From NCBI RefSeq assembly GCF_003315205.1, contig NZ_QNRR01000004.1, forward strand, positions 496,001 through 560,000: DNA of 64,000 nucleotides, in the 5' to 3' direction. How positions within the stretch are numbered: the first letter of the stretch is position 1; each line of letters begins with the position of its first letter. Made by a program: the position numbers and the translations under genes. The notes under the pieces were generated by a model. The model did not search any database and was not told the origin of the DNA. It saw only the letters and a list, made by a program, of their open reading frames with translations. Origin of the DNA: Roseimicrobium gellanilyticum (lineage in GTDB: Bacteria > Verrucomicrobiota > Verrucomicrobiia > Verrucomicrobiales > Verrucomicrobiaceae). Below are positions 1,615 to 27,010 of this stretch, in pieces.

Positions 1615-1631
1615 GATGTGGTGTGGTGATG

Positions 1632-4595: not shown

Positions 4596-4640
4596 GGGGG
4601 TGAAGAAGAATGGTGCGTGGAAAGGGCGTGGAATTGAGAG

Positions 4641-8611: not shown

Positions 8612-9043
8612 ATGAAGTTTCATCGACGGTCACCTGCTGGATTTATGAACCTCCAATTCTTCCCACTCTCAAAGCAAAAGAGAAATAGGCCCTACTGGGG
8701 CGTGATGCGCTTTCTTGGTCGGATGGCCCGTGATACAACGATGTATGCGGTGGACTTCAAAGATGATTCTCCGCACCTCTGGCACTACCACAAGCAGGAT
8801 GAATTGATTGTGGTCGTGAAAGGTGAGATTGAACAGGCGGTGCTATTGCCCGATGGCAGGATCCAAAAGAAAAAGCTGAAGGCTGGTGCGTCGGTGCAAT
8901 TGCCCAAGGGGACAAGGCACTCGGCCAGGCCGGAGCAACCTGGCACGCAGGTGGTGTTTACCATCAAGGGTGGCGACGGTATTTATCGCGCGTACGATGA
9001 GGAGGGTGAGTGGGTTGGGCCTGGAGACTTGCGTGAGGGGTGA
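8612..9043 (+). CDS. Small cupin-domain protein
   Basis: A 143-residue protein whose central part reads as a cupin beta-barrel: HLWHYHKQDELIVVVKGEIEQ fits cupin motif 1 (H-x-H plus a downstream E and G), and LPKGTRHSARPEQPGT fits motif 2 with its proline and histidine. Such small cupins bind a divalent metal and act as sensors, isomerases or small dioxygenases. The start is uncertain: ATG 8612 gives the longest form, while ATG 8645 (MNLQFFPL) or ATG 8705 also keep the whole barrel. It lies about 300 bp upstream of terB in the same orientation and could be the first gene of the Ter arm or independent. The substrate is unknown. Confidence 0.65.
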   Translation: MKFHRRSPAGFMNLQFFPLSKQKRNRPYWGVMRFLGRMARDTTMYAVDFKDDSPHLWHYHKQDELIVVVKGEIEQAVLLPDGRIQKKKLKAGASVQLPKGTRHSARPEQPGTQVVFTIKGGDGIYRAYDEEGEWVGPGDLREG

Positions 9044-9347
9044 GGGTGCGCTGTGGGAGCTTCCCTTGCTCAGGAATGAGGTGCAACTGCGGTACTTTTT
9101 TGCTCCAAGAGGACCCCGTTCCTTATGCCGGGATGCAACGGGGGATCAGCGCATCCAAGCGGCGCACCCTGAACCTGTTTCAAGCACTCCCAATTTAGAG
9201 CTTCCGAAGCTGCCGGCGTAGGTAGGGCAGGCGCTGGGCGAGTTCTCCCAGCCAAATCGTGCGGATAAGGAATTGGGGCCAAATATCTTCCGAAAATCAG
9301 CACTTGTTACTCGACAAACCAAAGTTATCCCGCCTTAATTCGGGGCC
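9044..9347. other. Intergenic region, no gene seen
   Basis: This 304-bp stretch lies between the cupin gene and terB. No convincing reading frame, RNA gene or repeat was found. The last 100 bp are AT-richer and probably contain the promoter for terB, but no clear hexamer pair can be named. Confidence 0.4.
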
Positions 9348-9803
9348 ATGAGCTTTTGGGATAATCTCAAGGACAAGGTGGCGGGCATGAATGCCTCGCT
9401 GCAAACCAGCGTCAGCAAATTCAAGAACGCGGAGTTCGCGAACGGTTGCATGGCCATGTGCGCCCTGATTGCCTCGGCGGACGGCAGCATCAGCGGACAG
9501 GAGAAGGGCAAGATCGCCACGCTCATCTCCGTGAACGAGACGCTCAAGATCTTCCCCGCTGCGGAACTCAAGACGAAGTTCGACTTCTTCTGCGACAAGC
9601 TGACGGCGGACTACGACTTCGGCCGCATTGAGGCCATCCAAGCCATTGGCAAGCTGAAGTCCAAGCCGGACCAGGCGCGCGCGGTGATCCAGATTGGCAT
9701 CATCATCGGCGGTGCGGATGGCAACTTCGACGATGACGAAAAGAAAGCGGTGAAGGCTGCCTGCGCCGCGGTGGGCATCGCCCCGTCCGACTTCGATCTG
9801 TAA
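9348..9803 (+). CDS. terB: TerB-family tellurium-resistance protein
   Basis: This 151-residue protein is of typical TerB length. It contains the two acidic helix-loop segments of the all-helical TerB fold: LIASADGSISGQEKGKIA near residues 40-57 and IIIGGADGNFDDDEKKAV near 120-137. TerB is a metal-binding cytosolic or membrane-peripheral protein that associates with TerC and TerD proteins in stress-resistance complexes. It is followed 163 bp later by terA and then two TerD genes, the usual Ter neighbourhood. The start ATG 9348 is chosen because MSFWDNLKDKVAG matches the common TerB N-terminus (recalled, not searched). Confidence 0.88.
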   Translation: MSFWDNLKDKVAGMNASLQTSVSKFKNAEFANGCMAMCALIASADGSISGQEKGKIATLISVNETLKIFPAAELKTKFDFFCDKLTADYDFGRIEAIQAIGKLKSKPDQARAVIQIGIIIGGADGNFDDDEKKAVKAACAAVGIAPSDFDL

Positions 9804-9966
9804 GTCAGTTACTTTTCCGTCAGAAAAGTCAGCGCCTGCTGTGAAGGTCTTTTGCGGAGAGTCCCCATTCCGTAAATAAAACCTTGCACAGCCGGTGACG
9901 TGTACGTACTGAGCATCGACAAAAATCACCGTTCAAGCATCGGAACGCAGACAAGTACCTGCCTGC

Positions 9967-11208
9967 ATGAAAACTCTCGCGCGCGGCCAGAAGGCCACCA
10001 TTTCCAGCTTGGGCGGCAATCCTGCCGCCCTGGAGGTTGCCGTGTCCCTGGATCTCAGCCAGGCAGGTGACGTTGACGTCAGCTGTTTCGGTCTGGACGA
10101 GCAGGGGAAGCTCTCGGACGAGAGGTATTTCATCTTCTACAATCAGCCGAAGTCCCCCTGCGGTGCGCTACAGGCGAAGGGCGCGTCCGGAGACGCCCGC
10201 CAGACCTTCCAGGTGGATCTGGGAAAGCTCCCCTCCACGGTGAAGCGACTGGTGTTCACGGCGGCCATCGACGGCAGCGCCACCATGAATCAGATCACCC
10301 GGGGAGCGGTGCGCCTCAAGAGTGCGGGCTCGCCCATGGCCGAGTTTCCCCTGGAGGCCAGGGACTACGGTGCTGAAAAGGCCTTGATGCTGCTGGACCT
10401 TTACTGGAAGGATGAATGGCGTGTGGCCGCTACCGGCCAGGGCTTCGCCGGTGGTCTGGATGCTTTGCTGCGGCACTTCGGCGGAAAGGTGGCGGAGGAC
10501 GAACAGAAGCCGAAGCCTCCGGTGGCCAGCCCGCCTCCAGCTCCCGCTCCGCCTCCTCGGCCTGCAACTCCTCCTCCTGTTGCCGCTGCCGCCGCCGCGT
10601 CAGCAGCGCCGACGTTGTCGCTGAAGAAGCTCACGCTGGAAAAGCCAGGCGAGCGCAAGTCCATCAACCTGACCAAGGGTGGGGGACAGAGCCCGATTCA
10701 CATCAATCTCAACTGGGACCGCGCCACGAAGCGTTCCTTCTTCGGAGGCAAACAGGAGGCCGACCTCGATTTGGGCTGCTTCTTCCAATTGCGTGACGGC
10801 AGGAAGAGCTGCATCCAGGCGCTGGGCGGCAATTTCGGAAGCCGCAGTAGCGAGCCCTTCATCTATCTGGACAAGGATGACCGGAGTGGCGCAAGCACCG
10901 ACGGTGAGAACCTCTACATCCTCCGCCCGGATATCATCGAGCGCGTGCTCGTATTCGCCTTCATTTATGAAGGCGTTGCAAACTTTAGCACGGTCAATGG
11001 CCGGCTGAACCTGCGCGAAACAGACGGAAGTGAAACATTGATCCGTCTTGACGCTCCCCAACAAGGGGCCACTTTCTGTGCGATTTGCCTGATCTCACGC
11101 ACCTCGTCCGGTGTGGACGTGATGAAGGAAACCCGATACTTCAGAGGCCATCCGGACGCGGATCGCCACTACGGTTTCGGCTTCCAGTGGAGGCAGGGTT
11201 CAAAGTAG
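9967..11208 (+). CDS. terA: TerA-like protein with two TerD-type domains
   Basis: A 413-residue protein with an N-terminal TerD-like domain (about 1-165; VDVSCFGLDEQGKLSDERYFIFYNQ), a proline/alanine-rich linker (about 183-215, rich in PPAPAPPPRP) and a second TerD-like domain (about 222-413; ADLDLGCFFQLRDGRKSC). This is the architecture of TerA. The calcium-loop motif GDNxTGxGxGDDE of true TerD proteins is missing from the first domain and degenerate in the second (DKDDRSGASTDGEN), so metal binding may be weaker or altered. TerA is thought to be a scaffold in the membrane-associated Ter complex. It lies between terB and terD in the plus-strand arm. Confidence 0.88.
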   Translation: MKTLARGQKATISSLGGNPAALEVAVSLDLSQAGDVDVSCFGLDEQGKLSDERYFIFYNQPKSPCGALQAKGASGDARQTFQVDLGKLPSTVKRLVFTAAIDGSATMNQITRGAVRLKSAGSPMAEFPLEARDYGAEKALMLLDLYWKDEWRVAATGQGFAGGLDALLRHFGGKVAEDEQKPKPPVASPPPAPAPPPRPATPPPVAAAAAASAAPTLSLKKLTLEKPGERKSINLTKGGGQSPIHINLNWDRATKRSFFGGKQEADLDLGCFFQLRDGRKSCIQALGGNFGSRSSEPFIYLDKDDRSGASTDGENLYILRPDIIERVLVFAFIYEGVANFSTVNGRLNLRETDGSETLIRLDAPQQGATFCAICLISRTSSGVDVMKETRYFRGHPDADRHYGFGFQWRQGSK

Positions 11209-11224
11209 TTCCCAATCTGTTTTC

Positions 11225-11242
11225 AAGAGAAGCTCTCTTTTT
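11225..11242 (+). terminator. Weak hairpin between terA and terD
   Basis: AAGAGA-AGC-TCTCTT followed by TTT forms a 6-bp, A/T-containing stem with a three-base loop and a short U-run. It could attenuate transcription or protect a processed terD message, but it is short and may be coincidental. Confidence 0.25.
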
Positions 11243-11274
11243 CAGAACACCAAACATCAAAACATAAGCAAACC

Positions 11275-11850
11275 ATGGCTATCTCACTATCCAAAGGCGG
11301 AAATGTTTCCCTTTCCAAGACTGCTCCCGGACTGACGAACATCCTCATCGGCCTTGGTTGGGATGCTCGCGCCACTGACGGTGCTGGCTTCGACCTTGAT
11401 GCGAGCGCGTTCCTGCTCAAGCCCGATGGCAAGGTGCGCGGCGACGGCGACTTCATCTTCTTCAACCAGAAGACCTCGGCTGACGGCTCCGTGAACCACA
11501 TGGGTGACAACACGACGGGCGCCGGTGAAGGCGATGACGAAGTGATCAAGGTGAACCTCGCCGGCGTCCCCGCGGACGTGGACAAGATCGCCGTGAGCGT
11601 GACCATCCATGATGCGGAAGCCCGCAAGCAGAACTTCGGCATGGTATCCCAGGCCTTCGTACGCGTGGTGAACGAAGCGGATGGCACGGAGATCGTGCGC
11701 TACGATCTGAGCGAAGACTTCAGCATTGAGACCGCTCTCGTCTTCGGCGAAGTCTATCGCAACTCCGGCGAGTGGAAGTTCCGCGCCGTGGGCCAGGGCT
11801 TCCAGGGTGGCCTTGCCGCCATGGCCAAGAACTACGGTGTGAACATCTAG
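11275..11850 (+). CDS. terD: TerD-family calcium-binding stress protein (TerD/TerE type)
   Basis: This 191-residue protein is a canonical single TerD domain. It shows LIGLGWDAR at the start of the fold, [11 protein letters not shown] near residues 38-48, and the calcium-loop motif [13 protein letters not shown] near 77-89, followed by [20 protein letters not shown] and [16 protein letters not shown]. TerD proteins bind Ca2+ through the clustered aspartates and form membrane-proximal assemblies with TerC and TerB that confer resistance to tellurite, phage and other stresses. It is the most consensus-like of the TerD proteins in this window and sits between terA and a TerZ-like paralogue. The start MAISLSKGG is the family-typical N-terminus. 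Confidence 0.93.
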
Positions 11851-11877
11851 TTCACCCCTCTTACAGCCTCTTATGGG

Positions 11878-11905
11878 CCGTGCATGCGCTGGTGCGTATG
11901 CACGG
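11878..11905 (+). terminator. Strong hairpin downstream of terD
   Basis: CCGTGCATGCGC at 11878-11889 pairs with GCGTATGCACGG at 11894-11905 around a TGGT loop, with a single mispair. It lies 28 bp after the terD stop and 38 bp before the next TerD gene. There is no long U-run, so partial termination or mRNA stabilisation of terD is more likely than full termination. Confidence 0.55.
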
Positions 11906-11942
11906 TTCCCGTTTCAGTCATTCACTTTAACCATTGTTCACT

Positions 11943-12524
11943 ATGCCCATCAGCCTGCAAAAAGGACAGAAGATCTCGCTGGAGAAGGAAGCGGGAGGAA
12001 CGCTCACCAAGATCGTCATGGGTCTGGGCTGGGACGCCAAGAAGAAGAAGTCGTTCTTCGGCCTCGGCTCCAAGGACCAGGAAATCGACCTGGATGCCAG
12101 TTGCGCACTGTTCGATGATCAGAACAGGCCGATGGACATCGTGTACTTTGGGCAGCTTACCAGCCGTGACGGCTCCATCAATCACACGGGCGACAACCGC
12201 ACGGGCGCCGGTGATGGAGATGACGAGCAGATCATCGTGGACCTCTCCCGCGTCTCCGCCGGGGTGAAGTCGTTGATCTTTGTGGTGAGCAGCTTCACCG
12301 GCCAGAGCTTTGCAGAAATTGAGAATGCGTTCTGCCGCGTGATCAATGGATCGAACAACCAGGAACTGGCGAAGTACGACCTGAGCTGCAATGGCTCACA
12401 CACCGCCATGGTCATGGCCAAGGTGTACCGCCACAACAACGAGTGGAAGATGCACGCCATCGGTGAGAATGCCGCTGGACGCACCTTCCAGGATCTGCTG
12501 CCAGCGATGGTGCGCGCACTCTAA
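11943..12524 (+). CDS. TerD-family protein (TerZ-like)
   Basis: A 193-residue TerD-domain protein starting at ATG 11943 (MPISLQKGQ, the family N-terminus). It carries the Lys-rich insertion KKKKSFFG just before EIDLDASCALFD, which distinguishes the TerZ-type branch from TerD/TerE. The calcium-loop GDNRTGAGDGDDE is intact, followed by SFAEIENAFCRVI and a C-terminal NNEWKMHAIGE. It is probably a calcium-binding member of the Ter complex. It is followed after 50 bp by the ATP-grasp gene, linking the TerD block to the biosynthetic block. A near-identical domain layout is found in the oppositely oriented TerD protein at 24672-25286. Confidence 0.88.
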   Translation: MPISLQKGQKISLEKEAGGTLTKIVMGLGWDAKKKKSFFGLGSKDQEIDLDASCALFDDQNRPMDIVYFGQLTSRDGSINHTGDNRTGAGDGDDEQIIVDLSRVSAGVKSLIFVVSSFTGQSFAEIENAFCRVINGSNNQELAKYDLSCNGSHTAMVMAKVYRHNNEWKMHAIGENAAGRTFQDLLPAMVRAL

Positions 12525-12574
12525 CGCCTGAGGTTCAGACCCCCAGCTTCCCCCCAGCAGGATTCTGTTTCTTC

Positions 12575-13657
12575 ATGGCAAAACATCGCGTTTGGTTCAG
12601 CCGGGCCAGTTCCAGTCTTCATCCCGCACTTCTGACTCTCAAGCAGAGACCACTGGGTGGTGATCTGGAGATTTACTCCAGCCATTCCCAGTGGGATTCC
12701 CCAGCACTCTGTGCCAGTGATGTGGCCCTGCTGGAGCCGGCTGAGCTCAAGGGGAACGCGTATGTCCAGTGGTGCCTCGACTTCTGTCGTGAGCACCGCA
12801 TTGATGTCTTTGTCCCCGGCGGAGCCCGGTCGCAAATCGCTGACCGACGGGAGGAGTTCGCGTCAGTAGGCACCCGTATCCTCGTGGCTGCGGATGGGCC
12901 GACCTTGAAGCATCTGGAGGACAAGTCCGGCTTCCTCGCCGGAGTGCCGCCGGAAATTGCTCCCATCGCCCGCTATGTGACGGTCAATACCGCGGCAGAG
13001 TTTGCGGATGCTGTCACCACGCTCCAGGCCACCTGCGAGAAGGTGTGCTTCAAGCCCAGCCAGTCCATCTTCGGGCTGGGATTCTATGTGCTCAAGGAAG
13101 GCCTGCAGCCGGTGAACCGCCTGCTCGATGGGTATGCCAATGTCATCTCGTTCGAGGAGGCACACCGCATCCTGGCCACCCAGGAGAAGTTTCGCGATGT
13201 GCTGGTCATGGAGTACCTGCCCGGCAACGAATACAGCGTGGACTGCGTAGGGCGCCGGGGAGAGCTGGTGTGCGCCATCGTGCGTGCCAAGCTGAGAGGC
13301 GACGACTCCGTAGGCAGTTCCCAGCTCGTCCAGGGGAATCCTGAAGTGGAGCAGATGGCCCGCGCCATTACCCACCGCTACGGACTGGATGGACTGTATA
13401 ACATGCAGTTTCGTGAGGGTGCAGATGGAGGACGCCCCAAGCTTCTGGAGGTGAATGGGCGGATGTCCGGCGGCATGGCCCTGGCCTGTCTCACAGGCAT
13501 CCATCTGCTGGAGCTGGCCATCCAGGTGACCCTGGCCGGTCCGGATGCACCTTTGCCGGAGGTCCGCAAGGTCGGATCTCCAGTTCGTGCCCAACAGGCA
13601 TTCAGTGCTTTCCCCGCGGTTCATGTTGTGTCACAGGGTAGCTCGACCTCTAGATGA
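12575..13657 (+). CDS. ATP-grasp ligase of the Ter biosynthetic cluster
   Basis: A 360-residue ATP-grasp enzyme. The nucleotide-binding lysine segment KVCFKPSQSIFGLGFYVL lies near residues 154-171, the hinge segment VLVMEYLPGNEYSVDC near 209-224, and the magnesium-binding KLLEVNGRMSGG near 288-299. ATP-grasp enzymes join a carboxylate to an amine or thiol through an acyl-phosphate. This family is described in Ter operons as part of a predicted pathway making a nucleoside-like or amino-acid-modified metabolite. Its TAG stop overlaps the ATG of the PRTase gene (ATGA at 13654), which indicates translational coupling. The substrate is not known. Confidence 0.85.
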   Translation: MAKHRVWFSRASSSLHPALLTLKQRPLGGDLEIYSSHSQWDSPALCASDVALLEPAELKGNAYVQWCLDFCREHRIDVFVPGGARSQIADRREEFASVGTRILVAADGPTLKHLEDKSGFLAGVPPEIAPIARYVTVNTAAEFADAVTTLQATCEKVCFKPSQSIFGLGFYVLKEGLQPVNRLLDGYANVISFEEAHRILATQEKFRDVLVMEYLPGNEYSVDCVGRRGELVCAIVRAKLRGDDSVGSSQLVQGNPEVEQMARAITHRYGLDGLYNMQFREGADGGRPKLLEVNGRMSGGMALACLTGIHLLELAIQVTLAGPDAPLPEVRKVGSPVRAQQAFSAFPAVHVVSQGSSTSR

Positions 13658-14814
13658 GCATTACCCGCCCGTTCCAGCCCCACCTTATCCAGACAGCCCC
13701 GGGCAGATATGAAGCCCGCCTGTCCGGAGGTGTGCTCACGATGGAGATGCATCGCGAGGAAGTGCCGCTGCCGGAGCTGTGCGATTTTGCGCTGCGGCGG
13801 AATGCACGGCGGCGATTCCTCTTTGTCAGCCGGGTGCTCGGAAGGCACATGCCCACCCGGCCTGGCCATTTGCGGGATGCCGCGGCACGATTGGCGCGGA
13901 AGATCGCTGCAGGGAATGGTCGCGGCCCTGTGTTGTTCTTTGGCATGTCCGAGACGGCCACCACACTCGCCCAGGCGGTGTATGCGGCGTGGCATGAGCT
14001 TGGCTGCGCAGGTCTGTACATCGAGAGCACGCGCCGCAGGACGGGGGGCTCAATCGCGTTCGAGTTTGTGGAGAGCCATTCACACGCTTCCGCGCATCTC
14101 GTCCACCTGCCGTCACCCGAGGATGATCCTGAAGGTGTTTTTCAGAAGGCCAGCCGCGTGGTGGTCGTGGATGACGAAGCCACCACAGGACGCACCGCAG
14201 CAGGACTGGCAGCGGCCTACGCCGCCTGGCGTGGCATCCCTGTCGAGGCCATGCGGGTGGAGCTTGCCGTCCTGGCGCGGTGGAATCCTCCCCAAGGCGC
14301 GGCACCTCTTGGCGAGGTGACCATTCACACCCTGCTGGATGGCGCATTTGAGTTTCGCGAGACGGGTGTCTTCCCCGAGGCGCCTGCCCAGGTGGCCCAT
14401 GCCGATGTGCAGAGCAATGCACGGTGTGGCGCACGGCATGGCCTGTCCCGTCCCCAGGAGATGCCTTGGTCGGTGAAGGCCAATCCCGGTGAGCGCATTC
14501 TCGTGTTGGGCACGGGCGAGTTCGGTTATCAGCCCCAGCTCCTCGCCTCTGCTTTGGAAGGGCAGGGAGCCACGGCATGGGTGCAGGCCACGACACGCTC
14601 GCCGGTGCTGACTGGGGGAGCCATCGGCCACAGCCGTACCTTTCCCTCCCTCACGGGCGAGGGCCATCCCGAGTTCCTCTACAATGTCCCCGACGACCAT
14701 CCGTACGATCGGGTTCTCCTCTGCTGTGAAGACACCCTGCTGCCATCGGACCATCCGCTGCGACAGGTGCCGCGAATCGAAATCCTGCCACTCCCAGACT
14801 CTCTGCCCTCATGA
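13654..14814 (+). CDS. Phosphoribosyltransferase with TRSP domain
   Basis: A 386-residue two-domain protein. The N-terminal part is a type I phosphoribosyltransferase: the PRPP-binding loop reads RVVVVDDEATTGRTAAGLA near residues 166-184, with the acidic pair and TTGRT typical of the fold. The C-terminal part carries the name-giving motif TTRSPVLTGGAI near 312-323 of the TRSP domain, which so far is known essentially from Ter-type operons. The enzyme is predicted to attach or remove ribose-5-phosphate on a base. It overlaps both neighbours by 4 bp (ATGA), so ATP-grasp, PRTase and HAD are made together. Function of the TRSP domain is unproven. Confidence 0.85.
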   Translation: MSITRPFQPHLIQTAPGRYEARLSGGVLTMEMHREEVPLPELCDFALRRNARRRFLFVSRVLGRHMPTRPGHLRDAAARLARKIAAGNGRGPVLFFGMSETATTLAQAVYAAWHELGCAGLYIESTRRRTGGSIAFEFVESHSHASAHLVHLPSPEDDPEGVFQKASRVVVVDDEATTGRTAAGLAAAYAAWRGIPVEAMRVELAVLARWNPPQGAAPLGEVTIHTLLDGAFEFRETGVFPEAPAQVAHADVQSNARCGARHGLSRPQEMPWSVKANPGERILVLGTGEFGYQPQLLASALEGQGATAWVQATTRSPVLTGGAIGHSRTFPSLTGEGHPEFLYNVPDDHPYDRVLLCCEDTLLPSDHPLRQVPRIEILPLPDSLPS

Positions 14815-15539
14815 AGACACGTGACTGGATTGCCACGGATCTGGATGGCACGCTCTTTTCACGGGAATTCGCCGTAGAGGGGGCGATCCCTGCCACGTGG
14901 AAAAAGGACGCTGCCGGAGACGTGCCTTCATCCTGGGTGCACCCCGCGACCTACCGCCTCATGCGGGCGCTGGGAGAGTGCTTCGACCTTGTTCCCGTGA
15001 CGGCGCGCGATCTGGATTCCTATTCTCGCGTGAAGATCGAGGGGCTCACGTTCCGTGGGGCCGTGCTCGCCAATGGTGCCATCATCATCGACCCGGATGG
15101 CAACATTGACGAGAGCTGGAATGATGTGATGGGGGGAGTGCTGGAAAGCGTGGCGCCTGAACTGCAGACCGTATGCCGGCAGGTTGCTGAGCAGTCGCGA
15201 GGTCTTGCGCGCGCACGACTGGTAGCCAGCGGTACAGAGCATGCGGCCTACCTGGTGGCGAAAGCAGACGAGGCGTGGTGGGGCACCCCAGAGGGTGTCC
15301 ACCTCCTGCAGACTCTCGAAGTAAGCACCTGCCGCGCAGCCCTGCTCAAGAATGAACTCCAGGTGCTGCCACCCGGCGTATCGAAGAGCATCGGCCTCGC
15401 GGCCTATCAGCAGCGCTACGGCATGGGCAATCCGCCGCTGATGGGCCTCGGTGACATGCCCACCGACATGGAATTCATGCGTGAGTGCAGTTTCCTTGGC
15501 ATTCCGTCCGGCAGCCGCCTGGAGCAAAGTTTTGTCTAG
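14811..15539 (+). CDS. HAD-superfamily phosphatase of the Ter cluster
   Basis: A 242-residue HAD hydrolase. Motif I is ATDLDGTLF (nucleophile D near residue 10 and acid D near 12), motif II is VPVTARDL near 61-68, the lysine motif is GVSKSIGLA near 188-196, and motif IV is GLGDMPTDMEFM near 212-223. The cap inserted between motifs II and III suggests the Cof/IIB class. It probably dephosphorylates the product of the PRTase step. It begins in a 4-bp overlap with the PRTase gene and ends 10 bp before the next gene, inside one tight operon. Confidence 0.87.
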   Translation: MKTRDWIATDLDGTLFSREFAVEGAIPATWKKDAAGDVPSSWVHPATYRLMRALGECFDLVPVTARDLDSYSRVKIEGLTFRGAVLANGAIIIDPDGNIDESWNDVMGGVLESVAPELQTVCRQVAEQSRGLARARLVASGTEHAAYLVAKADEAWWGTPEGVHLLQTLEVSTCRAALLKNELQVLPPGVSKSIGLAAYQQRYGMGNPPLMGLGDMPTDMEFMRECSFLGIPSGSRLEQSFV

Positions 15540-15549
15540 TACAGTATCC

Positions 15550-16665: not shown

Positions 16666-16676
16666 CACCTTTTAGA

Positions 16677-18305: not shown

Positions 18306-18357
18306 GATGGAATGGAGTAAGGGGTAGGTGTGTGAGAGAGAGTAAGCGGGTGGGTAA

Positions 18358-19392: not shown

Positions 19393-19448
19393 AGCAGATT
19401 CAGGTGAGAAGGTTCAGTGTGTGGAGAAAAGTTGATTCGGGGCTCGAC

Positions 19449-20945
19449 TCAGACGTTGGCCATCTGCACGTGGACCAGTCGGCCGCCGTCCTCGGGACTC
19501 AGCAGGAGCTTCTGGTCATTCTTCAGTTCGATGCGTTTGCCAGGCTCGATGAGTTCACCCGTATCCGCATCCTTGAGGGCGGGCAGGGACTGGTTCACCA
19601 GCAGCCATTTTCCGCCGTGGAAAACGAAGTAGCCGACCGGCTTGCGCTGCGCATCCGTAAGCTTCGCGCTTGGGAAAATGAGGCGCGAAACGTGCCAGGG
19701 ATAGAGGTACTGGTTGGAGTAGACCATCAGCCGGTGGTTGTCCGGCAGGAACTTCCCACCACCACGCGACGAGTACAGGTTCAGCACAGGCAGAGGCCCG
19801 ACGAACGGCGTGCCACAGAAGGGGCACTTGGGTTTGGTGCTGTTGTCAAAGACGTACCACTTCTGGTCGCAGCTCGGATTGGCGCAGGGCTGGATCAGGT
19901 CGACTGTCTTCACCAGCGCCGTTTCAATGTCGTGCGCCGTGGGCCGCTGATCCGGTGCATGCAGTCCCGTGATGAAAGCGCGATCAAAGATATCCCGCAG
20001 ATACGGGCCACAGATGGCGTAGGGAATCTTCGCCGTATCGGCAAAGGGCAGGAAGCCTGGCTTCACTGAGGTGGGATCACTGCGGTTGGTGTCATCAGAC
20101 GGATGCTCGATGAACAGCGCCTGTTTCCCCATGCCGAGTTCTTCATCCTTCTGAGGATCACTGTGATGCACCTTCCGTCCGCGAAGCGGGTGGCGGTAGA
20201 GCAAGTACATGTACACGAGTACCGCCAGCGCATGACGATCGGTTTCGATGCGGGGGAGCATCTTCTTGGGATCGCCCACCGGGAGGCTCAGACTGGACAC
20301 CACTTCAGGGGCAATGAAGTCCGGCGTGCCCACCACATCTGGCGGGTACCTACCAGGCACCACGAGGGTGTCGATGTCGATGATGCAGGCATTTCCTCCA
20401 GCGGGATCCACCAGCACGTTCTTGTAGGAGAGGTCGGAATGCGCGAGACCCGCCATGTGCAGGCGGCCCACGGAGCGTGCGATCTTGATGCACGTGGTGA
20501 AGTAGCTCAGCCAGTTGCCGCGTTCGCGGGGATCCAGGTGCTTCTGCTGGTGATTGGCGGAGGCGAACCACTTGCCCTCCTTTTCCTTGCCCTTGATGCT
20601 CAGGAAATCGCCATTCTTTGATCCGTGCTCAAAGAAGAAATGCTGCCGGTAGGTGGGCATGACGACACCCACATGCCCCGCGTCTTCCACAATATGCGTG
20701 GGCCAGCAGAAGAGCGACTCCCAATAGGCTCCGCCCTCTTGATTGAAAATGTTCTCACGGTACCTTCCCACGATGTTGCGCAGGCGCTCCATGGAGTTGG
20801 CGTCCGGTTTCTTCCGGTACCACCCGATGACCTGCTTCTTGTCTTTCGAGAAGTAGACATCCTTCATCCCGCCTGATCCGGCCTGGTTGGCGTCGTCAAA
20901 CTCGAACGAGGTTCCATCCGTGGCTTTCAGCCTGACAATGCTCAT
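19449..20945 (-). CDS. Ser/Thr protein kinase with zinc ribbon (Ter triad kinase)
   Basis: A 498-residue kinase. The glycine loop is QAGSGGMKDVYF near residues 21-32, the catalytic loop HLAHSDLSYKNVLVD has HSD in place of HRD, the DFG position reads DID (IIDIDTL), and the activation segment ends GTPDFIAPEVV. A zinc ribbon follows near 355-385 (CANPSCDQ then CPFCGTPF), then about 110 residues of beta-rich sequence. No membrane segment is present, so it is cytosolic. Together with the adjacent PP2C (4-bp overlap) and TerY genes it forms the TerY-kinase-phosphatase triad reported in Ter stress systems. Substrates are unknown; TerD-type or TerY proteins are candidates. Confidence 0.88.
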   Translation of the reverse strand: MSIVRLKATDGTSFEFDDANQAGSGGMKDVYFSKDKKQVIGWYRKKPDANSMERLRNIVGRYRENIFNQEGGAYWESLFCWPTHIVEDAGHVGVVMPTYRQHFFFEHGSKNGDFLSIKGKEKEGKWFASANHQQKHLDPRERGNWLSYFTTCIKIARSVGRLHMAGLAHSDLSYKNVLVDPAGGNACIIDIDTLVVPGRYPPDVVGTPDFIAPEVVSSLSLPVGDPKKMLPRIETDRHALAVLVYMYLLYRHPLRGRKVHHSDPQKDEELGMGKQALFIEHPSDDTNRSDPTSVKPGFLPFADTAKIPYAICGPYLRDIFDRAFITGLHAPDQRPTAHDIETALVKTVDLIQPCANPSCDQKWYVFDNSTKPKCPFCGTPFVGPLPVLNLYSSRGGGKFLPDNHRLMVYSNQYLYPWHVSRLIFPSAKLTDAQRKPVGYFVFHGGKWLLVNQSLPALKDADTGELIEPGKRIELKNDQKLLLSPEDGGRLVHVQMANV

Positions 20946-22948
20946 AGGGATGCGGAGGGTTGGGTTTCCGTAAGGACGATGATCGTCCGGTCGTCATGGT
21001 GACCGGGAGAGGGGAAGTTCAGCCAATCAAGCAGCCGCTCGGCGGACTCCGCACGTGTGGAGGCTCCGGCTACGAGGGGCTGCACCTCGGCCCAGAGTTT
21101 CCTCCAGGCATCTGCGTCACCCAGCGCGGCCTCACTGGCAAAACGCGGATCCGAAACACCATCGGTGACCAGCAGCAGTGCCTCGAAACTGGGCACGATC
21201 GCGAACTTGATCCGGTTCATGATGGCCTCACCGGATGCCAGCGCTTCCTTGACGGTAAGGAACACAGTCTGTCCGGCGAATTCTCCGCCGTCTGGTTTGG
21301 TCAACAGACACTCGATGTCGTCATCAGCCGTTCTCACCAGCGCAGCAGCACCGTCGCCGATGGAGAAGGAGGCAACGAACCATCCGCCCGAGGCCAGTGG
21401 CCGGGCAAGGACGATGATGATGGTGGTGTGGAAGTCCCTGGAGACGGCGTTTGCCGTGTTTGCCTTCTCCTCAATCAAGCGGCGGGCGTCCCATGCCACG
21501 CGGCCAAAATGGTTGTAGACTTCCGTTCGCAGCTTTGAGCGTGCTTCAGACGTTGCAGATGGATCCGCCGCGTAGGCTTCGACGAGGGGGGTAAGAGGAT
21601 CCGTGGAAACTTCGCCCAGCAGCTTCGAGAAATACTGGAGCACATGCACACAGGCAATCCTGGAGCCTTCGCGGGAGTACTTGGCACTGCCCGCGCCGTC
21701 CGCCACCGTCAGGGCATACCATCCGGTCTCGGGCAGCCACGCCATGGAAAAGTCATCATCACGGCAGCTACCCACGTGCGCGTGGGAGCGACCGCGCCGG
21801 CTGGCGGCGGTCACCAGCAGCGGGGCATCAGGAAGCGCCGCCGCATCGACATCCGGTTTCCAGAACGGAGCCGAAGTGTTGGAGGGTGTGTTTTTCCAAA
21901 GCGAGGACGGATCCGGATTGATGGTCAGCAGGAAGGTCTTGTTCAGTGCCGATGGCTTGCCGGACTCCGGCTCGGCCGAGGCGCACGTCATCGAAAATGA
22001 AAACTCACCTGACTCAGCGGGCACGCCTGACAGCACCGACGATTCACAGGACAATCCCTTCGGCGGGTCGTCTGCCACGGTCACTACATCGAAGGAAAGC
22101 TTGTGGATCTCCAGCGCCGTCAGCAGGGATGCCGAATACGCACGTCCCACGGTGGCGTTGGGCAGCCGGATGGGCATTGGAGGAGGCGTCATGGCTGCGG
22201 CGACGGTTGGGGGAGGGGTGGATTCGGGTGCCGCGGCAGAACCGTCCTCAGCGGGCTGTGGTTGATCCACGGACTCCGTGGCTGTGCTTTCCACCTGGGT
22301 TTCCGCGGGGACTTCGGACACCGGAACTTCGCTGGAAGACTCCCCCGGAGGTTCTTGGCTCTCCGGAGAGGATGCTGCGTCGGTTGCCATGGATTCTCCG
22401 TTGTTGGAATGGACGACTGTCTCCAAGGACTGCATCAGGGCCTCCAAGGGCGCCTCGACGGCCCGCGGACCATGCGTAAACAGGAGCTCAGCGTACTGCA
22501 AGAACAAAGGCGGCCACGGCGCCTCGATGGGCTGTCCCCATTGACGAATGTTGGCGTTGCGCAGGACCGGTGCAGGTTCGTGACCAAGCACAATCAAGTG
22601 CAGCACACTTGCCAGAGCCTGGACATCGCTGTGCTGTTGCTCTTCAAGCGTCGCGCCTGTCCCATCGGGATAATACGAGTAGGCTTCCTGAGGCTTGAGA
22701 GGTTCCCGCTGTCCATCTCTCGCGGCGAAGAACTCCGCATCGAGCATCCCTTCGGATGAAACCAGCATGCGCTGGGCACACACCGCGCCATGAGCCCGGC
22801 CCAAGTCGTGAATCTGCTTCAGGCATTCCACGATGGAATGCAGCGTCCTCACGGGATTTCCCACGAGGATCTCATGCCGCTGGATCAGGAATGTGTATAA
22901 AGGCAGCCGCTGATCATTCCTTTGGGAGAGAGTGTTGAGACCCGCCAT
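20942..22948 (-). CDS. PP2C phosphatase fused to a degenerate kinase lobe and Ig-like domain
   Basis: A 668-residue protein with three parts. Residues about 25-170 resemble a kinase C-lobe (IHDLGRAHGAVCAQRMLV in the catalytic-loop position, HSDVQALASVLHLIVLG like helix F) but lack the catalytic aspartates, so this is a pseudokinase remnant. A Pro/Glu/Ser-rich spacer follows, then an Ig-like putative domain near 255-350 (LPNATVGRAYSASLL, PKGLSCESSVLSGVPAESGE) of the He_PIG type. The C-terminal 280 residues are PP2C with GSCRDDDF, VADGAGSAKYSREG, LLVTDGVSD and HHDDRTIIVL supplying the metal-binding aspartates. Its stop overlaps the kinase start (ATGA). It probably reverses the action of the partner kinase. 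Confidence 0.85.
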   Translation of the reverse strand: MAGLNTLSQRNDQRLPLYTFLIQRHEILVGNPVRTLHSIVECLKQIHDLGRAHGAVCAQRMLVSSEGMLDAEFFAARDGQREPLKPQEAYSYYPDGTGATLEEQQHSDVQALASVLHLIVLGHEPAPVLRNANIRQWGQPIEAPWPPLFLQYAELLFTHGPRAVEAPLEALMQSLETVVHSNNGESMATDAASSPESQEPPGESSSEVPVSEVPAETQVESTATESVDQPQPAEDGSAAAPESTPPPTVAAAMTPPPMPIRLPNATVGRAYSASLLTALEIHKLSFDVVTVADDPPKGLSCESSVLSGVPAESGEFSFSMTCASAEPESGKPSALNKTFLLTINPDPSSLWKNTPSNTSAPFWKPDVDAAALPDAPLLVTAASRRGRSHAHVGSCRDDDFSMAWLPETGWYALTVADGAGSAKYSREGSRIACVHVLQYFSKLLGEVSTDPLTPLVEAYAADPSATSEARSKLRTEVYNHFGRVAWDARRLIEEKANTANAVSRDFHTTIIIVLARPLASGGWFVASFSIGDGAAALVRTADDDIECLLTKPDGGEFAGQTVFLTVKEALASGEAIMNRIKFAIVPSFEALLLVTDGVSDPRFASEAALGDADAWRKLWAEVQPLVAGASTRAESAERLLDWLNFPSPGHHDDRTIIVLTETQPSASL

Positions 22949-22967
22949 GAGACAATCTCCGAGGAAG

Positions 22968-23603
22968 TTAGAACACCAGGTTCACTTCGGGCGGCGGCGG
23001 TGGCAGATGCAGCTCGGCGCTGGCGCCCACGCTCACGTTTCCAGCAGCGACGCTGGATGAAACCCAGCGGAAGAAGCTGAGGAAGCTGTTCCCGTCCATC
23101 GTTTCCAGCGTGACGACATGATCCGCCAGCGGGGTCAGCTCATCCTTCTTGGCCTTCGGACCTGCGGCACAGGCCACGATGCTCGCGAAGCCACGGGATT
23201 TCACCTTGGGGATCGTCTCCTTGTAAAGCATGATGTCCGAAGGCGAGCCATCCGTCATGATGAAGGCGATGGGCTTCCAGTCGCCCTTGTTCTCCTCCTG
23301 GGTACGCCGCACTTCCTTGTCCACGCGGTCACAAAGGACCTCCAGCGCGGCACCGAGATTGGTGGGGCCCGAGTCCGGGCACGTGATGACAGGCAGCTGT
23401 AGCGACTCCAGGCCGCTGAGCGGGAGCACGACCTTCACCTCGCGGTCAAAGGTGATGATGGAGAGGTGAAGGGACTCCAGCGCATGGGGATCCTGGCGGA
23501 GTCCGCCCAGCATGGCCTGAAGGCCTGACTTCACGGATTCCAGTGGCTCTCCCTTCATCGAACCTGAGGTGTCAATGAGGAGGTAAACAGGAAGGCGACG
23601 CAT
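22968..23603 (-). CDS. terY: TerY-type VWA protein (short form, A)
   Basis: A 211-residue single VWA domain. MIDAS residues are in LIDTSGSMKG near 8-17, the threonine region SGPTNLGAAL and IMTDGSPSD. It ends HLPPPPPEVNLVF, a proline-rich tail shared with the neighbouring TerY protein. VWA proteins of this type bind divalent metal and mediate protein-protein contacts; in Ter systems they work with the kinase/phosphatase pair encoded just downstream (19 bp to PP2C). It is paralogous to the gene 41 bp upstream and to the longer zinc-tailed protein at 18358-19392. Confidence 0.9.
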   Translation of the reverse strand: MRRLPVYLLIDTSGSMKGEPLESVKSGLQAMLGGLRQDPHALESLHLSIITFDREVKVVLPLSGLESLQLPVITCPDSGPTNLGAALEVLCDRVDKEVRRTQEENKGDWKPIAFIMTDGSPSDIMLYKETIPKVKSRGFASIVACAAGPKAKKDELTPLADHVVTLETMDGNSFLSFFRWVSSSVAAGNVSVGASAELHLPPPPPEVNLVF

Positions 23604-23644
23604 ATACGAAGGGGGATTTGATTAGGCGAGTAGCGGTAGAAAGG

Positions 23645-24283
23645 TCACACCACGACTTTGATTTCGGGCGGAGGCGGGGGGAGTTGATCGAGTCCCTCCA
23701 CTTCCTTCCCGGCAGTTTCCACGGCCTTGCTGTTGCTGCTGACCGAGGCCGAAACCCATTTGAAGAACTTCGCCATGGCCGAGGCATCCGAGGTGTCCAG
23801 CCTGACCACCGACTCACCACAGATTTGCTTCAGCGCGGAGATGTCTCCATTGTTCACGGCGCAACCGACCACAACGCCCCATTTCTCCTGCTGGAAGCGG
23901 GCAAGACCCTTCTGCCAGTCGTCCGTGGGAGCGCCATCCGTCATGAGGAAGACCATGGGCTTCCAGTCGCCCTTGGTGGTGGAGGTGGACTTTGCGAGCT
24001 GGCTGGAAGCCGACTCCGCCACGAGACGCAGGGCATCTCCCAGAGCGGTGCTGCCCTGAGCGGTAAGGGCAGGTATCTGGAATGCGGTGAGCTCCGTGAG
24101 CTTTACCTTCTCATCGGCTTTGGAGTCGAACGTGATCACGCTCAGAAACGCCGTCTCCAGCGCATAGGGATCCTGGCGCAATGCGGAGACGAGCATCTGG
24201 ACTCCGTTTTTGACCTGTTCGATGGGTTCACCGAACATGGATCCCGAAGTGTCAAGGAGCAGGAATACAGGGAGGCGTCTCAT
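23645..24283 (-). CDS. terY: TerY-type VWA protein (short form, B)
   Basis: A 212-residue VWA protein with MIDAS motif LLDTSGSMFGEP near residues 8-19, the threonine in AQGSTALGDAL and the downstream FLMTDGAPTDDW. Its C-terminus QLPPPPPEIKVVV matches that of the next gene, so the two are tandem paralogues with a conserved tail that may be a docking peptide. No signal peptide is visible. It lies 41 bp upstream of the second TerY gene and 21 bp downstream of a small unknown reading frame, within the minus-strand Ter arm. Confidence 0.9.
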   Translation of the reverse strand: MRRLPVFLLLDTSGSMFGEPIEQVKNGVQMLVSALRQDPYALETAFLSVITFDSKADEKVKLTELTAFQIPALTAQGSTALGDALRLVAESASSQLAKSTSTTKGDWKPMVFLMTDGAPTDDWQKGLARFQQEKWGVVVGCAVNNGDISALKQICGESVVRLDTSDASAMAKFFKWVSASVSSNSKAVETAGKEVEGLDQLPPPPPEIKVVV

Positions 24284-24304
24284 GGGACCTTATGTATGCA
24301 GGGC

Positions 24305-24649
24305 TTAGGGTTGCTGTGAACTTTCCGCGGAACGCTGATTCACGCGGACATTGGACTCGTTGCGGATTGCGATGTCCACTCCAACATCTGCTTTCCTGGA
24401 ATTTGCCTGTCCGTCAACGCCCACGGCAGAGATCGAAATGTCCCGGTGCCTGGGTGCAGGTGCTGGCCGTGGAAGTGACGACCAACTCTGGCGAGCTGTG
24501 GAGGGATGGGAAACCCGGCTCACCGGTCTCGGCGGCGGGGAAGTAGGTTTCTGAGGAGCGGACCGGTCCGGGGGACTTACATCCAGGGGGGCTGATGATA
24601 CCCAGTCCCCCCAAACTACGTCCCGGACAATGTCACTGTTGGAGACCAC
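24305..24649 (-). CDS. Small Pro/Ser-rich hypothetical protein
   Basis: This 114-codon frame begins with GTG at 24649 and fits between the TerD and TerY genes with 22-bp and 21-bp spacers, which is why it is listed. The N-terminal half is Pro/Ser/Arg-rich (SPPDRSAPQKPTSPPPRPVS) and the C-terminal half is a plausible soluble segment (DISISAVGVDGQANSRKADV). A GGAG lies only a few bases upstream of the GTG, too close for a good ribosome-binding site. No family is recognised. An opposite-strand frame over the same bases looks weaker. It may be a real small Ter component or a decayed remnant. Confidence 0.4.
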   Translation of the reverse strand: MVSNSDIVRDVVWGDWVSSAPLDVSPPDRSAPQKPTSPPPRPVSRVSHPSTARQSWSSLPRPAPAPRHRDISISAVGVDGQANSRKADVGVDIAIRNESNVRVNQRSAESSQQP

Positions 24650-24671
24650 GACTCCAAGAAGGCAGAATCAT

Positions 24672-25286
24672 CTACACGTGTGATTTCAGGATCTCGACGA
24701 AGTTATCCGTGGCGTGACCCTCACCGAGGGCGCGGAACTTCCAGCCGCCACCCTGGCGGTACACTTCGCCAAACACCATGATGCATTTGCCGTTATACAG
24801 GGGCTCGGACGTGAGATTGTATCGTGCCATTTCCTGGTTCTTGGCATCAATGGCGCGCATGTACGCGCTCTCCACTTCGCCAAAGTGCTGGTTGTGGCGT
24901 TTCCCCTGGTAAATCTGCACCAGGAAAAGGATGCGGTGCACGTTGGCAGGCAGGGTGTTGAGGCGCACGACGATTTGTTCGTCGTCGTTGTCGCCGCTGC
25001 CGCCCACGCGGTTGTCACCCGAGTGGTAGATCTGCCCGCTGGGATGCCGGAGGTTCCCAAAGAAGATCACGTCGCTGCCCATCAGCTTGTCCCCGAGACT
25101 GCGCACCTTGCCATGCTCATCCAAAACGAAGGCAATGGCGTCCAAATCGTAGTCCTGGGCACCGCTCAGTTTGGCAAAAAACCCCTTCTTTCGAATCTTC
25201 CACCCAAGGCCGATGGTGATCTGGCTGAGGTCGTTCGTGTCCTTTTCGAGACTGATGGTCTGGCCCTTCTGGAGATTGATCGGCAT
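24672..25286 (-). CDS. TerD-family protein (TerZ-like, minus arm)
   Basis: A 204-residue TerD-domain protein starting MPINLQKGQTISLEK. Like the plus-arm TerZ-like protein it has a basic/aromatic insertion (KKGFFAKLSGAQDYDLDAIAF) between the first and second strands. The calcium loop is GDNRVGGSGDNDDE, longer by one residue than usual but with the aspartates retained. It ends with GGGWKFRALGEGHATDNFVE. It probably binds calcium as part of the Ter complex. The order TerC, TerD, TerZ-like, small protein and TerY in one direction indicates one transcription unit from 27010 down to 17604. Confidence 0.87.
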   Translation of the reverse strand: MPINLQKGQTISLEKDTNDLSQITIGLGWKIRKKGFFAKLSGAQDYDLDAIAFVLDEHGKVRSLGDKLMGSDVIFFGNLRHPSGQIYHSGDNRVGGSGDNDDEQIVVRLNTLPANVHRILFLVQIYQGKRHNQHFGEVESAYMRAIDAKNQEMARYNLTSEPLYNGKCIMVFGEVYRQGGGWKFRALGEGHATDNFVEILKSHV

Positions 25287-25356
25287 GGGAATGGAGTGTT
25301 GATGTGATCGGAAGAATCGAAGCGGGCGGGAGCGGGAGCGGGAACGTGAAGCTCCG

Positions 25357-25908
25357 TCAGGCGTACTTGTTTACGAAGCTCTGCAGACCGCCGGTAGTCG
25401 CGGTTCCCATGGCTTCAAACCGCCATGCACCCCCGCGCTTGTAAAGGCGCCCAAACTCCACCGCCGTCTCGATGGAGAAGTCTTCATCGAGTTCGTACTT
25501 GCAGATTTCCCCACCGGAAACTGCATCATAGATGCGGATGAACGAGTTCCGCACCTGGCCGAAATTCTGCCGGCGGGTCTCGTAGTCGTGAATGGTGACG
25601 GTGAAGATGATCTGCTCGATGCGCTGATCCACCCTGCTGAGGTCGAGCATCAGCGTCTCGTCATCTCCATCGGAGTTGCCGCCCGTGCGGTCATCTCCCG
25701 AGGACGTCACCGCGCCATCCGGCGACGACATGTTGTTATAGAATACGAAAAACTCGTCCGTCGGGATTTTGTTATTCGCCCCGAGCAGGAAAGCCGAGGC
25801 GTCGAGGTCGAAATCCTGACCGGTCTTTGCCGGGTCCCACCCGAGTCCGACACCGATTTTTTGAAGACCGATGTCTACTCGCTGTCCTTTAGAGAGATTG
25901 ATAGCCAT
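25357..25908 (-). CDS. TerD-family protein (TerD/TerE type, minus arm)
   Basis: A 183-residue single TerD domain. It shows VGLGWDPAKTGQDFDLDASA near residues 24-43, the calcium-loop GDDRTGGNSDGDDE near 76-89 and [20 protein letters not shown] near 141-160, closely parallel to the plus-arm terD product. It starts MAINLSKGQRVD, the typical family N-terminus. It is encoded 103 bp downstream of terC, and TerC-TerD partnership at the membrane is the core of Ter systems. One acidic position differs from the plus-arm copy (GDD for GDN), so the two may differ in metal affinity. Confidence 0.9.
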   Translation of the reverse strand: MAINLSKGQRVDIGLQKIGVGLGWDPAKTGQDFDLDASAFLLGANNKIPTDEFFVFYNNMSSPDGAVTSSGDDRTGGNSDGDDETLMLDLSRVDQRIEQIIFTVTIHDYETRRQNFGQVRNSFIRIYDAVSGGEICKYELDEDFSIETAVEFGRLYKRGGAWRFEAMGTATTGGLQSFVNKYA

Positions 25909-26011
25909 TGCAGTGTATCAGAAGGCCTGTCTTGTAATATCGCGTCAGGCGAAGCACAAGACAAAAATCTGGATACAAAGTCAACTCTCTGTCGGAAAAA
26001 GCAGTGGTCGA

Positions 26012-27010
26012 TTACGGAGTGTCGGTGTTCTCCGCTTTCTTCTCGTCCTCGCCTTCTTCGGGTGCCTTCACTGCGAGAGACCAGATGACGCCCGTGGCCA
26101 GGACGAGGCCCACGATGGTAAGGCTGACGGCGTTCGGAAGGTGGTAGCCGAAGGCGCTTCCGATGAGCTTGAACGACACAAAAATCAGCAACACCATCAC
26201 CGCCTTGTCGAGTGCCCAGAACAGGTTCTGCGCCGCGATGAGCAGGAAGTAGAGGCTGCGCAGACCGGCGGCCGCCCACAGGCTGGAGGTGATCATCAGG
26301 TACGGGTCGCGAACCACGGCCACGATGACCGGCATGGAGTCGAATGCAAAGATAACGTCACAGACTTCAATACAGATAAGGCACAGGAACAGCGGGGTGA
26401 CGCCATGGCTGAAGAAGTGACCACTCTCGATGGAGGGATTGGTCTTGGTGAACTTGCGCACCATGAGCACGGACCAGTGATTGGTGTAGTCCACCTCTTC
26501 ATCGTCCTCGCCGCTCTTCCACATCTTCCACACGGTCCAGAGCACCACGAGGGCGAAGAGAATGAGCACAAACGGGCTCACGTTCACAATGAGGGCGCCG
26601 AAGCCGAGGAAGAAGAGACGGAAGACAATGGCGCCCAAAATGCCCCAGTACAGGATGCGGTGCTGGTAGTGCTGGTTCTGGTCCTGCGTGAGACCGAAGG
26701 ACTTGAAGATGAGGTAGAAGGCAAAGAGGTTGTCCAGTGCCAGCGCCTTCTCAAGTACGTATCCGGTGAAGTAGAGGCTCGCATTCTCCGGTCCGCCGTG
26801 GGCACCCTTGTGAAACCAGATGTACACCCCGAAAGCCAGGGAGCAGACCACCCAGATGATGGACCAGAAGAGGGCATTGCCCATCGTGATCTTGTGACCT
26901 TTCCGGTGGGTGAGCAAGTCAATCAGGACCGCCGCCACGAACGGAATCAGGAAGACCATCACGTCCTGGAACGAGATTCCAGCAAAGGCGGAAAGAGAGT
27001 TTTCAAACAT
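26012..27010 (-). CDS. terC: TerC-family integral membrane protein
   Basis: A 332-residue inner-membrane protein with about eight hydrophobic helices, starting at residues 14-30 (ISFQDVMVFLIPFVAAVL). Two intramembrane acidic motifs typical of TerC are present: EKALALDNLFAF near 86-97 and CDVIFAFDSMPVI near 219-231. An acidic cytoplasmic loop (GEDDEEVDY) and an acidic C-terminal tail are visible. TerC proteins export or handle metal ions such as Mn2+ and anchor TerB/TerD assemblies. It is the first gene of the minus Ter arm. The upstream 480 bp contain no recognisable metal-sensing riboswitch. Confidence 0.93.
   Translation of the reverse strand: MFENSLSAFAGISFQDVMVFLIPFVAAVLIDLLTHRKGHKITMGNALFWSIIWVVCSLAFGVYIWFHKGAHGGPENASLYFTGYVLEKALALDNLFAFYLIFKSFGLTQDQNQHYQHRILYWGILGAIVFRLFFLGFGALIVNVSPFVLILFALVVLWTVWKMWKSGEDDEEVDYTNHWSVLMVRKFTKTNPSIESGHFFSHGVTPLFLCLICIEVCDVIFAFDSMPVIVAVVRDPYLMITSSLWAAAGLRSLYFLLIAAQNLFWALDKAVMVLLIFVSFKLIGSAFGYHLPNAVSLTIVGLVLATGVIWSLAVKAPEEGEDEKKAENTDTP

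Follow-up and report, generated by a model that had tools for sequence, protein, structure and literature searches.

A complete Ter/TerY-P island with two convergent arms in Roseimicrobium gellanilyticum

The stretch of Roseimicrobium gellanilyticum DNA described here (64,000 nucleotides, positions 496,001 to 560,000 of contig NZ_QNRR01000004.1; "the window") carries 18 genes (9348-27010) which, judged from their sequences, form an accessory, patchily distributed, and conserved complete Ter/TerY-P stress-response island of known type. The biosynthetic enzymes and the TerD proteins would constitute its core, and the TerY-P genes a tuning switch. This reading, which extends to the mechanism and the direction of signalling, may be given a probability of about 0.47. 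It draws on gene content, intact active-site motifs, recurring gene order, and nested co-occurrence. The original prediction for this DNA counted twenty genes from position 8612; the count falls to 18 genes from 9348, while the gene families it named are confirmed by Pfam. A cupin open reading frame (ORF, 8612-9043) and a 114-codon ORF (24305-24649), the latter also lacking a Pfam match, were dropped because neither found a match in nine sets of relatives by tblastn (E 1e-3).

Gene content, layout, and distribution

The gene set was established by Pfam and NCBIfam scans of the window ORFs. The + strand arm (9348-17663) opens with TerB (151 residues, 9348-9803; PF05099, E 9e-21) and TerA (413 residues, 9967-11208), whose TerD domain spans residues 3-171 (PF02342, E 2e-36). 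Two TerD proteins follow, the first of 191 residues (11275-11850; PF02342, E 8e-86), the second (11943-12524; PF02342, E 1e-55) with an ATG at 11943 picked by inspection in a frame open from the TTG at 11934. The five enzymes of the biosynthetic set then complete the arm. These are an ATP-grasp ligase (12575-13657; PF15632, E 2.5e-36), a PRTase_2 phosphoribosyltransferase (PRTase) with a C-terminal TRSP domain (13654-14814; PF15609, E 4e-45, and PF12500, E 8e-18), a HAD-family phosphatase (14811-15539; PF08282, E 1.3e-4, 22.3 bits against a cut-off of 20.9; NCBIfam HAD-IIB, E 4e-7, under its cut-off), StiP, with a PRTase fold and an L30e/PELOTA domain predicted by model (15550-16665; PF11202, E 7e-73, and PF15608, E 2e-17; ATG 15550 picked by inspection, frame open from GTG 15451), and a TIM-barrel C-C bond lyase (16677-17663; PF15617, E 3e-59). 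All seven Pfam families of this set, PF15632, PF15609, PF12500, PF08282, PF11202, PF15608, and PF15617, score above their own cut-offs.

The - strand arm, read inward from 27010, starts with an Alx-type TerC (26012-27010; PF03741, E 4e-37, with TIGR03718 over cut-off), followed by TerD proteins 3 (25357-25908; PF02342, E 7e-68) and 4 (24672-25286; PF02342, E 1e-57) and by two short VWA proteins, protein 1 with the tail LPPPPPEIKVVV (23645-24283; PF00092, E 9e-13) and protein 2 with the tail LPPPPPEVNLVF (22968-23603; PF00092, E 8e-12). Next come a PP2C phosphatase (20942-22948; PF13672, E 1e-35, residues 385-643), a protein kinase in which four zinc-ribbon-type Cys are invariant (19449-20945; PF00069, E 1e-7, 32.1 bits against 31.7), and TerY (18358-19392), in which a VWA domain (PF00092, E 9e-10) is joined to the TerY_C metal-binding domain (PF15616, E 5e-7, 30.2 bits against 28.4). 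AIM24 ends the arm (17604-18305; PF01987, E 1e-58; ATG 18305 by inspection, frame open from 18539). Pfam thus bears out the predicted TerB, TerA with four other TerD-domain proteins, and TerC, as well as the three VWA proteins, the kinase/PP2C pair, AIM24, and the five enzymes. TerC (PF03741) and TerB (PF05099), which mark membership of a Ter system, are both present. In a search of the whole 7.93-Mb genome, five TerD-domain matches exceeded the cut-off, and all five lie inside the island (TerA and the four others).

The two arms had been predicted to run tail to tail, and they do: the 3' ends of the lyase and AIM24 genes overlap antisense by 60 bp (17604-17663), by ORF coordinates and with counterparts in relatives. 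All 18 genes recur by tblastn, in the same order and with the same convergence, in G002, G012, and G018, three genomes of one genus different from that of the window, a recurrence beyond what chance would produce. The loci of G080 and G061 (represented also by L016 and L017, each counted once) are convergent as well; one short VWA gene and both TerD genes of the - arm were not matched there in the stretch read, and in G061 additional sequence separates the arms. A second match to the TerA N-terminus is seen in G061 between TerY and AIM24 (L028, 15157-15663). Two further pieces, L014 and L015, are short and convergent. AIM24 and the lyase face each other in 8/8 loci possessing both genes, the window included, three of these loci belonging to one genus. 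The 3' overlap amounts to 60 bp in the window, 63 bp in G002, G012, and G018, and 66 bp in L014 and L015; the two genes are separated by 39 bp in G080 and by 1.7 kb in G061. An open frame reaching 20 codons into its neighbor is unremarkable by itself.

The island is organized differently in G028, where TerC, four TerD, two VWA, PP2C, the kinase, TerY, and the five enzymes share a single strand, the TerY-P genes standing immediately ahead of the biosynthetic genes. TerC was found there by family search, being too diverged for a match with the window's TerC; neither TerA nor AIM24 was matched at this locus, and TerB gave no match anywhere in G028 or G047. The latter genome resembles G028 over the first half of the locus on one contig and carries the enzymes on another, so that the junction is not visible. 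Kinase, phosphatase, and enzymes stand at a single locus in each of the seven Verrucomicrobial loci that were read completely (window, G002, G012, G018, G080, G061, and G028), with the modules co-directional in G028. A single Ter system with linked modules, as originally proposed, is supported.

Among 96 relatives, the genome itself included, TerD was found in nine, the lyase family in eight, and TerY_C in eight; the genomes with lyase or TerY_C are all nested within the nine TerD genomes, and the remaining 87 lack all of them. G047, with TerD and no TerY_C match, has a TerY gene truncated by a contig end; hence a TerY gene is present in all nine. In G022, which has no lyase, the TerY gene lies 2 kb from a contig end. 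G001, the sole other member of the window's genus among the 96, has neither TerD, TerY_C, nor lyase. With TerD in only nine of the 96, the island is a real but patchy accessory element. In an even draw across the phylum, PRTase_2 exceeded the cut-off in 3/335 genomes (own genome included, one borderline), with 28 more weak matches, too few genomes for phylum-wide co-occurrence to be usable.

StiP, the other enzymes, and the TerY-P triad

In alignment, the PRTase_2 protein displays the loop VVVVDDEATTG, of the type that binds phosphoribosyl pyrophosphate (PRPP); against solved structures its profile reaches a best E of only 0.23, and the StiP sequence one of only 0.48. An AlphaFold model of StiP built with seven sequences has a mean predicted local distance difference test score (pLDDT) of 75, low at residues 1-33 and 225-255. 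The top row of its VIA comparison is 1ufr_C (Z 12.3, root-mean-square deviation 3.5 Å over 143 residues; title TT1027), which we take to be PyrR, and the remaining 49 listed rows bear PyrR, HGPRT, or other PRTase titles. Foldseek gives a best E of 2.4e-3, with none reaching 1e-3, and matches L30e-type proteins besides PRTases. StiP thus models as a type I PRTase fold plus an L30e/Pelota domain. Its PRPP-type loop, FVDGWTGKG, is invariant in 10/10 aligned sequences and departs from the canonical motif in that Gly replaces the usual second acidic residue. No Cys column is invariant in the same number of aligned sequences, the best being C201 (9/10). Since the fold matches are PRTases and no Cys is invariant, we think that databases mislabel StiP, as far as its fold is concerned, by calling it a cysteine protease, and that it is PRTase-like, as the model predicts. 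Neither the open-access literature searched nor passages of PMC10318531 gave a source for the name "cysteine protease StiP". Papers are cited here by PMC number. PMC7824862 mentions more than one PRTase in the Ter system, in agreement with StiP as a second PRTase-fold protein.

A search for an RNA target of the Pelota domain in Rfam returned a single chance-level match, far under the gathering score. Kink-turn-like sequences had no match in ten intergenic stretches, a weak test because shuffles lead one to expect merely 0.2 matches. It is quite improbable that StiP is a sensor of the pathway rather than an enzyme. The nucleoside-like product would then be recognized by its PyrR/HGPRT-like domain and RNA by its L30e/Pelota domain, with PyrR-like regulation of ter transcripts or stress RNA; or else a pathway with two PRTases would modify an RNA base instead of making a free metabolite. 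The tails of the short VWA proteins (see below) would in that case be the docking peptide coupling this readout to the kinase/phosphatase triad.

The three parts of a TerY-P triad are found in the - arm: TerY with its C-terminal metal-binding domain, a PP2C, and a kinase with a C-terminal zinc ribbon, whose profile scores under cut-off (E 0.027) and whose C354, C359, C374, and C377 are invariant in 7/7 aligned sequences. The kinase motif HSDLSYxN and the downstream aspartates are likewise invariant in 7/7, the PP2C aspartates D417, D532, D596, D652, and D653 in 8/8, and the residues of the metal ion-dependent adhesion site (MIDAS) in 12/12 aligned VWA sequences. TerY is the only one of the three VWA proteins of the island with TerY_C. 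The short VWA proteins share a C-terminal tail, LPPPPPE[IV] in 9/10 aligned sequences and LPPPPAE in the tenth, from this genome through Klebsiella (alignment drawn from window 22968-24283, L018, L016, L017, L024, and L031, leaving out the copies of G002, G018, G022, and G047). This tail is absent from TerY and looks like a docking peptide for some partner.

In the PP2C protein, the middle part is β-rich and Ig-like by eye only, with no Pfam family. The first 190 residues (window 22379-22948, - strand) bear a weak likeness to a kinase C-lobe in which the catalytic Asp is missing (IHDLGRAHGAV). By hhalign, the region of the catalytic loop is aligned co-linearly with a probability of 1-2%, as is a later helix in one of the runs. 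Pfam has nothing for this N-terminus, and AlphaFold models it poorly (mean pLDDT 48). A pseudokinase is here a lead only.

Known Ter systems and candidate mechanisms

Ter systems are widespread on enterobacterial plasmids, as seen in a search of a plasmid collection. The Klebsiella pneumoniae plasmid ter locus (terZABCDEF with biosynthetic and terXYW genes, e.g., NZ_CP079784.1) contains every module of the island except AIM24: like the window, it has the TerD family, TerA, TerB, TerC, ATP-grasp, PRTase, StiP, and lyase, together with VWA-TerD-VWA, TerY_C, PP2C, kinase, and a HAD homologue annotated there as hypothetical. This rules out the gene set as unique, and the completeness that had been regarded as notable is no longer so; PMC8115787 moreover describes the Klebsiella locus as a pair of oppositely oriented operons. 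The two differ in several respects. The Klebsiella terZABCDE run (terE-terZ) is divergent from the enzyme and TerY-P genes, whereas the window arms converge and part TerC from TerB/TerA, a layout other than the divergent Klebsiella type. The Klebsiella locus possesses DUF4236 and CopG genes, AIM24 being unmatched in the stretch read, and its PP2C, unlike that of the window, is missing most of the N-terminal kinase-like part. The link between AIM24 and TerD, on which the open-access literature searched gave one paper (PMC5822837), is attributed there to a 2012 paper (Anantharaman et al.); PMC12839542 contains just the reference to the latter. Klebsiella TerC is required for drug tolerance and dispensable in metal stress according to PMC9933665, and the title of PMC12054061 gives terC a role in tellurite and zinc resistance in Klebsiella.

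Other systems share only a part of the island. In the Pseudomonas plasmid NZ_CP029096.1 and in the viral contig L034, the enzymes occur with TerD, TerA, TerB, and TerC as in the window, on one strand, however, and over the 33 kb and 13 kb read, respectively, the kinase, PP2C, TerY, short VWA, and AIM24 all went unmatched; the plasmid stretch carries a different VWA gene on the opposite strand. TerY-P triads (VWA, PP2C, and zinc-ribbon kinase) are known elsewhere with the same three parts, and are also used by CoCoNuT restriction systems (PMC11090510); that of the window is linked to TerD and biosynthesis rather than to CoCoNuT nucleases, and is accompanied by the two additional short VWA proteins with LPPPPPE tails. 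The Acinetobacter jumbo phage ME3, which carries a relatively complete Ter system (PMC7824862), was compared for its StiP homologue, 31% identical and annotated as a phosphoribosyl transferase. The convergent layout, the re-reading of StiP, and the VWA tails are new to us, with no claim of priority, neither the layout nor the tails having been a target of the open-access literature searches.

Sensing of metal and production of a nucleoside-like metabolite were put forward in 2012 by Anantharaman et al. (as cited in PMC10250203, PMC11090510, PMC8115787, PMC7824862, and PMC5822837), so that the metabolite in the original prediction was already on record. PMC7824862 describes the synthesis of a signal that is read by TerB/TerD. 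The latter view is favored here because enzymes and TerD occur with or without TerY-P, and because TerY-P serves other systems. Membrane-bound TerC, with TerB, TerA, and TerD proteins on the inner face, would form a stress- and metal-responsive assembly. The ATP-grasp ligase, the two PRTase-fold proteins, the HAD phosphatase, and the C-C lyase would make a nucleoside-like small molecule, which would cooperate with the TerD proteins and would most likely be an alarm signal or a ligand. TerY, the kinase, PP2C, and the two short VWA proteins would be an add-on phosphorylation switch tuning this assembly, not an obligatory gate on synthesis, and the enzyme and TerY-P modules would behave like cassettes, found together or apart in different bacteria.

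Sequence comparisons between loci bear on these cassettes. L015, G080, and G061 are nearer to G028 than to the window in StiP, PRTase, and HAD (StiP 68-71% vs. 60-62%), and nearer to the window in the kinase and TerY (kinase 71-81% vs. 59-62%). Trees of these five of the 18 genes, with nine taxa, disagree between the two sets on the attachment of Klebsiella, each set rejecting the tree of the other (approximately unbiased (AU) test, p 0.0057 and 1.3e-5), although this initial pair of trees also differed within one genus. Once the inner order of that genus is fixed, a position of Klebsiella next to G028 is rejected by the enzyme set (AU p 0.02) through HAD alone, and the kinase plus TerY set rejects the enzyme placement (p <1e-4). 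Taken singly, the kinase is decisive and HAD gives p ~0.02-0.03; TerY lies at the borderline, with p between 0.05 and 0.14, and no placement of Klebsiella is rejected by StiP or by PRTase. Once Klebsiella is removed (its branch length is ~3 in the enzyme tree), the topologies are concordant. Exchange of modules between loci is weakly suggested by these comparisons.

Several observations weigh against a core that is merely tuned by TerY-P. The tree signal for separate module histories is weak and depends on one distant sequence. The kinase, phosphatase, and enzymes stand in one locus in 7/7 of the fully read Verrucomicrobial loci, which fits direct control too. Finally, the support that this reading draws from the plasmid collection (72,556 records), with 2567 StiP matches, of which 130 are in Pseudomonas and 41 in Rhizobium, and 2337 kinase matches, with neither genus in the top ten and the tenth having 3, comes from record counts by genus and not from a record-by-record pairing.

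The chain of the original prediction, in which TerD and TerY sense metal or calcium and set the kinase/phosphatase switch, which in turn gates the nucleoside-like metabolite, has every module present with motifs intact, and in G028 the TerY-P genes directly ahead of the biosynthetic genes on one strand. As a rule, however, gating is not supported, since the enzymes with TerD, TerA, TerB, and TerC occur without TerY-P matches in the stretches read of the Pseudomonas plasmid and L034, and the plasmid record counts point the same way; the weak discordance of the module trees and the CoCoNuT triads also speak against it. Such gating seems unlikely, though it may operate in this particular lineage. 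That the island serves mainly in phage or plasmid defence, the nucleoside-like compound raising the alarm and TerC/TerB/TerD acting as effector at the membrane, is also rather unlikely. Ter and TerY-P-like modules do appear in the phage resistance literature (PMC11090510, PMC7824862, PMC10250203, and PMC8115787), the distribution is patchy (9/96), and the island lies in a ~56-kb stretch missing at the matching place of G001, of the same genus (see below). PADLOC, on the other hand, run on ten of the 18 proteins (TerB, ATP-grasp, PRTase_2, StiP, AIM24, TerY, the kinase, PP2C, and the two short VWA proteins), returned matches for the kinase only, two and weak.

It is very improbable that the arms are adjacent stress operons lacking functional coupling: the core Ter genes are divided between them (TerB/TerA vs. 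TerC), and their linkage is repeated in convergent, co-directional, and divergent layouts. The missing shared upstream motif and the weakly discordant trees speak for such independence. The preferred reading, that of an enzyme and TerD core tuned by TerY-P, bears on a system whose natural role and proposed metabolite are still unproven despite its wide spread on plasmids. A complete chromosomal copy, together with relatives having, lacking, or rearranging the island, provides a comparison set, module by module. A StiP that combines the PRTase fold with a domain of RNA-binding type would, if true, shift which reactions to seek, and the conserved VWA tails offer a concrete interaction to probe.

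Regulatory signals and genomic setting

No operator shared upstream of TerB and TerC was found in six genomes. The best 18-base match was 13/18 in five of them and 14/18 in the sixth; 60 shuffles of the window's pair, the only one shuffled, gave a mean of 13.2 and a maximum of 15. Terminator-like sites number 21 over the whole region (14.3 expected), with none on either strand from 16108 to 18004 and thus none at the junction. The scan for promoter-like sites, restricted to the sigma-70 type, found one where 4.7 were expected.

The setting was compared between 60 kb of G001 and 124 kb of the window's contig. Window position 27505 and a point ~28.7 kb ahead of the window are only ~60 bp apart in G001; the Ter genes are therefore the right end of a ~56-kb stretch missing there (G000:C4 ~467309-523505, window ~ -28692 to 27505). 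Its left side is near a tRNA-Met, where part of the tRNA 3' end is repeated; this is no proof of integration, because G001 has that piece too, and no integrase was found among 20 ORFs scanned in the left part of the stretch. The stretch was either gained in the window genome or lost in G001.

At the right end, the island adjoins a gene for a passenger-repeat (PATR) protein of 1822 residues (27492-32960, - strand), to which G001 has similar DNA. On the other side (window 484-8405 and L043 16883-19938, both - strand), an AAA_5/MoxR ATPase, two DUF4132-HEAT proteins, VWA_CoxE, and DUF5682 make up a cluster of the MoxR-VWA type, which presumably resembles the E. coli yeh genes. Further MoxR-type AAA, GATase1-like, trypsin-PDZ, and BatA genes are found within the same 56-kb stretch (L043, 2146-14788).

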